DNA of 64,000 nucleotides, from positions 114,106-178,105 of the forward strand of contig NZ_LOEP01000056.1 in the NCBI RefSeq assembly GCF_001482285.1, written 5' to 3'. This DNA is from Haloferax sp. Q22. GTDB lineage: Archaea; Halobacteriota; Halobacteria; Halobacteriales; Haloferacaceae. Shown piece by piece: positions 43 to 2,175 of this stretch. Position 1 is the first letter of the stretch. Each line of letters begins with the position of its first letter. A program made the position numbers and the translations under genes. The notes beneath the pieces were generated by a model. That model made no database searches and was not told the origin of the DNA. It saw only the letters and a list, made by a program, of their open reading frames with translations.

Positions 43-1251
43 TCAGTCGGCCGCGCCCGGACTCGCATCGGCACCCGCGCCGCGCTCGTCGGGCGTCAGG
101 TAGCACTGCGGGTCGGGCCCGAACAGTTCGCCCGTCGCCGCGAGCGACCGAAGCCGCGAGGAGCCGCGGCACACGTCCTGATACTGGCAGGTCGCGCACT
201 TGCCGGTCAGGTGTTCTTTCCGCTCTCGAAGCCTGGCGAGAAGCGGGTTCGACTCGTCGTCCCAGATGTCGCCGAACGGCCGGTCCCGAACGTTGCCAAG
301 GCTGTAGTTCTGCCAGAACTGCGTGAGGTGGACGTCGCCGCGGTAGTCCACGTCGGCGACGCGCTCGCCGGTCGGGTCGCCGCCGTTGACGCGGAGATAC
401 CGGTGAATCCGCTCGGCGTGGTCGGCGTCGAGTTCCTCACGGGCGTACTCGACCACGTAGGCGGAGTCGGCGTAGTTGCCGACCAGAAGCGTCTCTATCT
501 CCTCGCCCTCGGCGTGGTACTCACGGGTCATGTCGAACAGCCGGCGGACGGCGCGACGCTGGGCCTCGTCGTCGAGGTCGGCGTCGGCGATGTCGCCGCC
601 GCGGCCGCCGTAGTCGAGGTGGTAGAAACAGAAGCGGTCGACGCCCACGTCGTACAGCAGGTCCACCACGTCCTCCATGTCGGCGGCGTTGTGCTCGGTG
701 ATGGTGTACCGGAGGCCGGTCTTGAGCCCCACAGAGAGGCAGTTTTCGATGCCGCGGACGGCGGCGTCGAACGCGCCGTCCTTCCCGCGGAAGCGGTCGT
801 TGCGCTCCTCTAACCCGTCGACTGAGACGCCGGCGTAGGAGAGTCCGGCGTCGCGGAGCGCTCGGGCCTTCTCCTCGGTGATGAGCGTCCCGTTGGTCGA
901 AAGCACGGCCCGGATGCCGGCGTCGGTGGCGTAATCGACGAGTTCGACGAGGTCCTCGCGGACGAGCGGCTCGCCGCCCGAAAACAGCAAGACAGGCACG
1001 TCGTAGGCCGCGAGGTCGTCGATGAGCCCCTTCGCCTCGGCGGTCGAGAGTTCGCCCTGCGCGGGGTCGAGGTCGGCCCCGGCGTAGCAGTGTTCGCAGT
1101 AGAGGTTACAGCGCCGCGTCGTGTTCCAAACCACGACCGGGCGTTTCTGTTTCTCCTCGCGTATCTGGTCGATGTCGGCGTCGGGGTCGTCGTAGCGGAG
1201 GCCGTCACCCTCGGCTCCCTGCCCGCACAGGAGCTTGCTGATGGAAATCAC
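43..1251 (-). CDS. Radical SAM/SPASM-type Fe-S enzyme, partner of the adjacent small protein
   Basis: This 402-aa protein is a radical SAM enzyme, which cleaves S-adenosylmethionine at a [4Fe-4S] cluster. The cluster motif CNLYCEHC (CX3CX2C) lies at residues 48-55 and is followed by the SAM-binding FSGGEPL segment. The C-terminal region around residues 345-385 has extra cysteines (GKCATCQYQDVC, then QCYL), as in SPASM domains that hold auxiliary clusters. The start is GTG, and it overlaps the stop of the upstream small gene as GTGA, so the two are probably translated together. The pair resembles the haloarchaeal radical SAM plus Htur_1727-family partner system. An alternative is a role in the alternative heme pathway (AhbC/AhbD-like enzymes share this architecture). 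The enzyme class is certain; the substrate is not. Confidence 0.85.
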   Translation of the reverse strand: MISISKLLCGQGAEGDGLRYDDPDADIDQIREEKQKRPVVVWNTTRRCNLYCEHCYAGADLDPAQGELSTAEAKGLIDDLAAYDVPVLLFSGGEPLVREDLVELVDYATDAGIRAVLSTNGTLITEEKARALRDAGLSYAGVSVDGLEERNDRFRGKDGAFDAAVRGIENCLSVGLKTGLRYTITEHNAADMEDVVDLLYDVGVDRFCFYHLDYGGRGGDIADADLDDEAQRRAVRRLFDMTREYHAEGEEIETLLVGNYADSAYVVEYAREELDADHAERIHRYLRVNGGDPTGERVADVDYRGDVHLTQFWQNYSLGNVRDRPFGDIWDDESNPLLARLRERKEHLTGKCATCQYQDVCRGSSRLRSLAATGELFGPDPQCYLTPDERGAGADASPGAAD

Positions 1252-1565
1252 TCGGCCGACACCCCGTTTTCGGCACCGCGGACGTCTCTCGCGGCGTCAC
1301 GGTTCTCTGTCTCGCCGTTCGACCCCTCACCCTTCGCCGCGAGGTCGTTCCCACCGAGACGGAGGAACTCGTCGGCCGGCGCGAGCCAGAGGTCCGCGTC
1401 GCCGTCGCCGAACAGCGTCCGCGCCTGCTCGGTCGCGAGGTTCTCGGCGGGCGCGCTCACGCTGCCGACGTGGCGCATCGGCTCGGCCGACGCGTCGCGG
1501 TAGAACACTTCCCACTGGCGGCTGCCGTCGATTCGCGGTCGTCGCCTCGGGTCGTCGTCGTCCAT
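1248..1565 (-). CDS. Htur_1727-family radical-SAM-partnered small protein
   Basis: This is a small acidic protein of about 105 aa. Its core runs WEVFYRD, then MRHVGSVSAP, then LFGDGDADLWLAPADEFLRL, the pattern I recall for the Htur_1727 family that always sits beside a haloarchaeal radical SAM enzyme. The family has been suggested to be a modified-peptide (RiPP) precursor, but the fold also recalls small PaaB-like subunits, so it could be an accessory subunit. The stop overlaps the GTG of the radical SAM gene. I chose the ATG at 1565; an in-frame GTG at 1592 would add nine residues. The low-complexity polar C-terminal tail (about 30 residues) has no recognisable motif. Confidence 0.7.
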   Translation of the reverse strand: MDDDDPRRRPRIDGSRQWEVFYRDASAEPMRHVGSVSAPAENLATEQARTLFGDGDADLWLAPADEFLRLGGNDLAAKGEGSNGETENRDAARDVRGAENGVSAE

Positions 1566-1665
1566 GTCATCGCCTTCGGGTGGAGTGGCCACGCTCGTTT
1601 CGCCCGTTTTCAGCGCGTGGGAATCGAAGCTTTAGACTTGTTCGGCCACTCACTACGGCCAGCTA

Positions 1666-2175
1666 ATGACGCAACGGTTCACCCGGCGGTCGGTTCTCCG
1701 CGCAACGGCGGCTTCGACAGGTATCGCGCTGCTGGCGGGCTGTTCGAGTTCGTCCGGCGGCGCGGACGACGAGGGCGGGGATGGCGACAGTTCCTCCGAT
1801 GGGGAAGGCACCTCCGAACACGAGATGCGGGACTTCGGCGGCTGGTTCGACCGGACGGCGAACTACGACGGCGTCCACGACCTGACGGGACAGGACACCG
1901 TCACGGTCGCGGTCGGCGCGGCCGGCAACGGCGGCGGCTACGCGTTCGCCCCCGCCGCGGTGCAGGTCTCGCCGGGGACGACGGTCGTCTGGGAGTGGAC
2001 CGGAAACGGCGGCACCCACAACGTCGTCAACCGCGAAGACGGGCTGTTCGAGTCGGAACTCACCGTCTCAGAGGGCCACACGTTCGAGTACACGTTCGAG
2101 GAGTCCGGCGAGTACAAGTACGTCTGCGTCCCGCACGAGACGCTCGGGATGGTCGGGGTCGTCGTCGTCGAGTAA
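1666..2175 (+). CDS. Halocyanin, Tat-exported blue copper lipoprotein
   Basis: A 169-aa membrane-anchored blue copper protein, expected to shuttle electrons at the outer face of the membrane. The N-terminus has a twin-arginine signal (TRRSVLR) followed by a lipobox (LLAGC), so the protein should be exported folded and lipid-anchored on the cysteine. An acidic Gly/Ser/Asp linker follows, then a plastocyanin-type domain at about residues 60-169. The copper ligands are visible: His in GGTHNVV, and Cys, His and Met in the CVPHETLGM segment. It is a single gene, divergent from the radical SAM pair; nothing next to it shows its redox partner. Confidence 0.9.
   Translation: MTQRFTRRSVLRATAASTGIALLAGCSSSSGGADDEGGDGDSSSDGEGTSEHEMRDFGGWFDRTANYDGVHDLTGQDTVTVAVGAAGNGGGYAFAPAAVQVSPGTTVVWEWTGNGGTHNVVNREDGLFESELTVSEGHTFEYTFEESGEYKYVCVPHETLGMVGVVVVE

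Follow-up and report, generated by a model that had tools for sequence, protein, structure and literature searches.

A likely AhbC-type radical SAM enzyme and its coupled PaaB-like partner protein in Haloferax sp. Q22 and other haloarchaea

The stretch analyzed here (the window) comprises 64,000 nucleotides of contig NZ_LOEP01000056.1 of Haloferax sp. Q22 and carries a gene for a radical S-adenosylmethionine (SAM) enzyme with a SPASM domain, preceded on the same strand by the gene of a small protein of the Htur_1727 family, which is called the partner in the following. The coordinates are collected in Table 1. At the junction (GGCCGAGTGATT) the partner stop codon TGA and the enzyme start codon GTG share the letters GTGA, and the same overlap of 4 nucleotides (nt) was seen in 46 of 58 partner-enzyme loci. 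A sequence-only reading of this DNA had described an intact CX3CX2C radical SAM/SPASM enzyme, translationally coupled through GTGA to an Htur_1727 partner of about 105 amino acids (aa), and this description holds.

Table 1. Features of the partner-enzyme locus, with positions in the window
Feature	Position	Strand	Evidence
Radical SAM/SPASM enzyme gene, TIGR04347 family, likely AhbC, 402 aa, GTG start	43..1251	minus	open reading frame and profile matches
Residues 48-55 (CNLYCEHC), the CX3CX2C motif that ligates the [4Fe-4S] cluster to which SAM binds	1087..1110	minus	C48, C52, C55 alignment
SPASM auxiliary-cluster cysteines C352-x2-C355-x5-C361-x21-C383	103..198	minus	alignment and Pfam SPASM, 27.3 bits
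Partner gene of the Htur_1727 family, 105 aa with the ATG at 1565 as start	1248..1565	minus	TIGR04031 and PF06243 matches
Partner open reading frame, longer form, 114 aa if GTG at 1592 is used	1248-1592	minus	open reading frame call
PaaB-like domain within the partner, roughly residues 12-72	1350..1532	minus	
GTGA shared by partner stop and enzyme start	1248..1251	minus	junction read
Halocyanin (blue copper protein) gene, divergent neighbour of the pair, listed for context	1666..2175	plus	TIGR03102, 150.5 bits

In the profile search the enzyme scored 746.9 bits against TIGR04347, far above the curated cut-off of 525, and it also passed the Pfam cut-offs of PF04055 (106.7 bits) and of the SPASM family PF13186 (27.3 bits). 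Its cluster cysteines C48, C52, C55, C352, C355, C361 and C383 are present without exception in all 31 enzymes aligned. When the motif was searched by regular expression over 52 distinct enzymes, three failed: L047 and L049 are frames with a wrong start, and L086 is a broken copy. The TIGR04347 family is named "pseudo-SAM/SPASM", and since the CX3CX2C motif is intact the term "pseudo" does not suit this enzyme.

The enzyme is 98% identical to those of Haloferax prahovense, gibbonsii, denitrificans, marisrubri and massiliensis. Its identity to the enzymes of five AhbC loci of the Methanosarcina type, which lie above NCBI's AhbC cut-off, is 46-47%. With AhbC (12,18-didecarboxysiroheme deacetylase, or Fe-coproporphyrin III synthase; Mbar_A1793 of Methanosarcina barkeri) it has the radical SAM domain and a C-terminal four-cysteine cluster in common, and likewise the co-occurrence with the siroheme decarboxylase AhbAB. 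In the accessible excerpts of earlier papers, HVO_1121 of Haloferax volcanii is assigned by homology as the haloarchaeal AhbC and HVO_2144 as the heme synthase AhbD (PMC5746218, PMC8305020), the identity of HVO_1121 to M. barkeri AhbC is printed as 47% (PMC8305020), and Htur_1726 and Htur_1728 are given as the AhbC/AhbD orthologs (PMC3403918). The enzyme and HVO_1121 are very probably orthologs, as judged from the identity within Haloferax, the match in the H. volcanii control genome and a CbiX-family gene about 6.5 kb downstream of the enzyme gene; of the two control genomes in the enzyme search, which included H. volcanii, one matched and one was over the cut-off. As an ortholog of HVO_1121 it would likely yield Fe-coproporphyrin III, the product obtained with M. 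barkeri AhbC in Escherichia coli together with CysG and AhbAB (PMC3942049, accessible part). The enzyme thus likely works like AhbC, going by homology, and this function is claimed without membership of the NCBIfam AhbC equivalog TIGR04546, on which it scored 456.1 bits against a cut-off of 650. In the profile search against TIGR radical SAM families which had been proposed in the sequence-only reading, the enzyme thus lies above the cut-off of TIGR04347 and below that of TIGR04546. That reading's heme-chemistry alternative is supported, and its description of the system as undescribed falls away because haloarchaeal AhbC had already been assigned by homology (PMC5746218, PMC8305020, PMC3403918, all in excerpt). 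AhbC itself is already known; in the literature searched, it is the role of the partner that has no description.

The partner in its 114-aa form passed the cut-offs of TIGR04031, the Htur_1727 family (68.3 bits, cut-off 57.2), and of the Pfam PaaB family PF06243 (34.1 bits, gathering score 27), and it stayed below those of the NCBIfam PaaB equivalogs (27.8 and 22.8 bits against 85.45 and 150). Seven of its eight invariant residues are also present in the PaaB structure 3egr. The predicted structure shows a PaaB-like fold with a predicted local distance difference test score (pLDDT) of 81-91 over residues 11-70, after which follows an acidic, variable tail modelled with low confidence. The ratio of nonsynonymous to synonymous substitution rates of the partner against nine Haloferax species was 0.26-0.53. 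From the profile, PDB and fold comparisons the partner is likely a PaaB-like protein and not the precursor of a ribosomally synthesized and post-translationally modified peptide (RiPP). It differs from PaaB, the bridging subunit of phenylacetyl-CoA epoxidase (PDB 3egr, 4iit), in its acidic, variable tail, in falling far under the PaaB equivalog cut-offs, and in the position of its gene, which lies between the radical SAM and halocyanin genes and not among paa genes. A weak second partner match in the same genome (30 bits on the partner profile) is probably a PaaB.

NCBIfam names TIGR04031 "rSAM-partnered candidate RiPP", and the partner is a member by score, yet the evidence favours a PaaB-like subunit. 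A RiPP-like substrate, on which the radical SAM enzyme would install a crosslink or another change, had been offered in the sequence-only reading and is now much weakened; we regard it as very improbable. It would fit the coupling of a small partner to a SPASM enzyme, the invariant Trp and the Cys of a W-x-C-P motif found in 33 of 37 aligned partner rows, and by sequence an enzyme-made change on this Trp or on another residue may be compatible with the data. However, Cys is absent altogether from the window copy and from the copies at L058 and L059 in two genomes of the same genus, and the enzymes next to them retain their full cluster cysteines. The tails are variable, with the loose pattern R-[STVN]-x-E in 18 of the 37 rows only, and over 26 paired loci the mean pairwise identity was 47% for the partner against 75% for the enzyme. 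The aligned partners show no conserved core peptide or set of modifiable residues such as marks a RiPP precursor, their invariants being residues of the PaaB fold, and the closest characterized relatives of the enzyme work on tetrapyrroles.

The distribution of both genes was surveyed in 145 haloarchaeal genomes, with thresholds of at least 525 bits for the enzyme and at least 54 bits for the partner. The enzyme was found in 88 genomes and the partner in 95; they occur together in 87, the enzyme alone in one, the partner without the enzyme in eight, and neither in 49. This co-occurrence (87/88 enzyme-positive against 8/57 enzyme-negative genomes) is far beyond chance and bears out the conserved pairing in haloarchaea given in the sequence-only reading; because of kinship among the genomes the rows are not independent, so that the p-values overstate the significance. 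Linkage was counted on 92 of the 105 rows of the enzyme search. Nine rows at 374-387 bits were dropped as the d1-type paralog (three inspected, the rest assigned by score), as were four AhbD-like rows at 210-216 bits, and partner matches below 54 bits were likewise excluded. The partner lies directly upstream on the same strand for 87 of the 92 enzyme matches; the other five belong to G058 and G086 (the partner is retained although separated from the enzyme gene), G002 (no partner match) and G063 and G048 (enzyme fragments). At named loci the partner stands beside the enzyme in 78 of 80, the exceptions being Halorientalis pallida and H. persicus. The coupling sets the haloarchaeal enzyme apart from other archaeal AhbC-like loci, since no partner lies within about 1.5 kb of any of the 26 non-haloarchaeal ones, and the partner family was absent at E 1e-6 or better from the 163 non-haloarchaeal genomes in a sample of 196 from the phylum (33 haloarchaeal; 164 of the 196 at least 90% complete). 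Of the 83 enzyme-positive genomes tested, 79 have AhbAB, among them that of the window, against 30 of 57 enzyme-negative ones (Fisher p 2e-9); five enzyme-positive genomes of one genus (G083, G084, G102, G106, G115) were left out, and the threshold was 1e-6 for one part of the genomes and 1e-20 for the other (80 of the 85 remaining genomes).

Directly established here are the overlapping genes, the intact cluster ligands, the near-obligate co-occurrence, the sequence likeness to PaaB and the predicted PaaB fold. PaaB dimerizes and joins two catalytic units beside the presumed docking place of the reductase. The explanation which we favour, and which the analysis makes reasonably probable, is that the enzyme is likely AhbC and that the partner is a PaaB-like accessory subunit of AhbC and not its substrate. 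AhbC would remove both acetate side chains from 12,18-didecarboxysiroheme, giving Fe-coproporphyrin III for heme, and the partner would bind it as a bridging or adaptor subunit. By analogy with PaaB, a partner dimer would hold AhbC, perhaps together with the often adjoining AhbD, in one complex, which would aid electron delivery or the hand-over of the iron-tetrapyrrole. A literature search on the partner (Htur_1727/TIGR04031; PaaB with radical SAM and heme) found nothing, a weak negative confined to open-licence papers and made with the H. volcanii locus tag not known.

Several results weigh against this explanation. The mean pLDDT of the partner model is 68.6, and Foldseek with this model gave no match at E 0.001, PaaB chains appearing at 0.0012-0.0020. 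The enzyme of G002 stands without any partner match, and the accessible part of the E. coli work with M. barkeri AhbC mentions no such partner (PMC3942049). Eight of the 95 partner genomes have no enzyme at 525 bits or more, and seven of these eight have an AhbD-like gene; in G024, G077, G090, G129, G130 and G132 the partner and an AhbD-like gene are present with no AhbC-like match at E 1e-60. The enzyme misses the AhbC equivalog cut-off, as stated above, and the NirJ1 model scores level with the AhbC model (455 against 456 bits). Finally, four of the 83 enzyme-positive genomes, all of genus g39, are without AhbAB at E 1e-20.

The NirJ1 scores, which for the second enzyme copy of the same genome even put NirJ1 ahead (434 bits against 425 for AhbC), and the g39 genomes would suit an enzyme other than AhbC, which either works on a different tetrapyrrole, like NirJ or NirJ1 in heme d1 synthesis, or is no longer catalytic, as the family name "pseudo-SAM" would imply. 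This is improbable in view of the invariant cluster cysteines and the co-occurrence of the enzyme with AhbAB and AhbD-like genes. NirJ and NirJ1 are homologous radical SAM enzymes of heme d1 synthesis, but some haloarchaea have a separate paralog whose gene set encodes a protein with a cytochrome d1 domain, in G025 and G049 alongside the TIGR04347 enzyme. Such sets were seen at L216:1623-6992 (G025), L217:1357-8315 (G049) and L215 (G085); the cytochrome d1 domain PF02239 scored 258 and 234 bits in two of them, and BLAST shows the gene in the third as well. Their radical SAM paralog is named NirJ-like from context, and L217 also contains HemA. In L216 additional propellers match d1 weakly, at 30.5 bits and at 25.2 (slightly under the cut-off of 25.5), and the d1 domain is preceded by a cupredoxin match that stays below its cut-off (22.4 bits, cut-off 27). 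These sets look like a cd1-type nitrite reductase; haloarchaeal nitrite reductases are usually described as NirK.

AhbD-like genes, taken at E 1e-70, were found in 101 of the 145 genomes, none above NCBI's AhbD cut-off, and three of them scanned singly fitted TIGR04053 best. The partner is the divergent neighbour of the AhbD-like gene in 36 genomes and lies within 5 kb of it in 44 (counted over 47 rows for the partner and 48 for AhbD, from hand-picked genomes with both genes on one contig), and Htur_1727, after which the partner family is named, falls by its number between Htur_1726 and Htur_1728. Since the six partner genomes without an AhbC-like match all have an AhbD-like gene, the partner cannot serve AhbC alone. 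It could be mainly an accessory of AhbD, or serve AhbC and AhbD as a common scaffold, with the coupling to AhbC left over from operon history. We consider this unlikely, though worth keeping in mind, since all seven genomes with AhbC but no AhbD-like match keep the partner, 13 of the 20 with an AhbD-like gene but no AhbC lack it, and the translational coupling of the partner is with AhbC.

Some partner copies apart from the enzyme have neighbours of their own. In G077, which is missing the AhbC-like enzyme, a CGCGG-type "rSAM-modified RiPP" gene (L079:6529-6879; TIGR03995, 130 bits) is near the partner and a TIGR04545/AhbD-like gene is on its opposite side; a like gene, by sequence likeness only, is near the partner in G090 (L080:6439-6753), also without the enzyme. 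The Htur_1727-family genes of G129 (L082:5893-6186) and G024 (L084:5781-6074) stand alone, with no relative of the enzyme in the surrounding 12 kb, and end in RTHEL, a tail also found on some coupled partners.

Among the 57 genomes without the enzyme 30 keep AhbAB, and 28 of these 30 have no AhbD-like match. ChdC is present in 144 of the 145 genomes and in 29 of the 30, the exception being G014. The absence of AhbC and AhbD was already noted in Natrialba magadii and ascribed to metabolic heterogeneity (PMC3403918, in excerpt). The retention of AhbAB where both AhbC-like and AhbD-like genes are absent suggests loss of the oxygen-sensitive radical SAM arm as a unit, with a different enzyme performing the AhbC step. 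This missing step, from didecarboxysiroheme to coproheme, is probably oxygen-compatible; the gene neighbours of AhbA/AhbB revealed no candidate replacement.

If the favoured explanation is true, the NCBIfam labels "candidate RiPP" and "pseudo-SAM" are both misleading, haloarchaeal heme synthesis has an extra subunit of which the accessible parts of the heme papers say nothing, and the use of PaaB-like folds extends beyond ring epoxidation. A directly testable gap is also exposed, which is coproheme formation in AhbC-less haloarchaea with AhbAB and ChdC. As a tentative extension, rather doubtful as a whole, a PaaB-type bridging subunit may have been recruited from oxygenase chemistry into an ancient, anaerobic radical-SAM heme step, where a complex shared with AhbD would enable an oxygen-sensitive enzyme to function in salt-saturated cells that live in air; haloarchaea in which this module was lost and AhbAB and ChdC remain would use another, oxygen-compatible enzyme for the same step.

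Contig C24 of the same genome carries a second partner-enzyme pair (L017:7748-10065) with the GTGA overlap, the motif Cys and an R-x-x-E tail. An iron-sulfur repair (RIC) gene follows it, and its enzyme is 69% identical to the window copy. The pair is present in one of six sampled genomes of its genus and was perhaps acquired, as its enzyme falls outside the Haloferax/Halobellus clade. At the AhbD-like locus of this genome (L018, contig C9), nine CGAA-N4-TTCG palindromes occur in 17 kb where 0.78 are expected, an excess that agrees with the palindromes published for denitrification promoters around HVO_2144 (PMC5746218, in excerpt).
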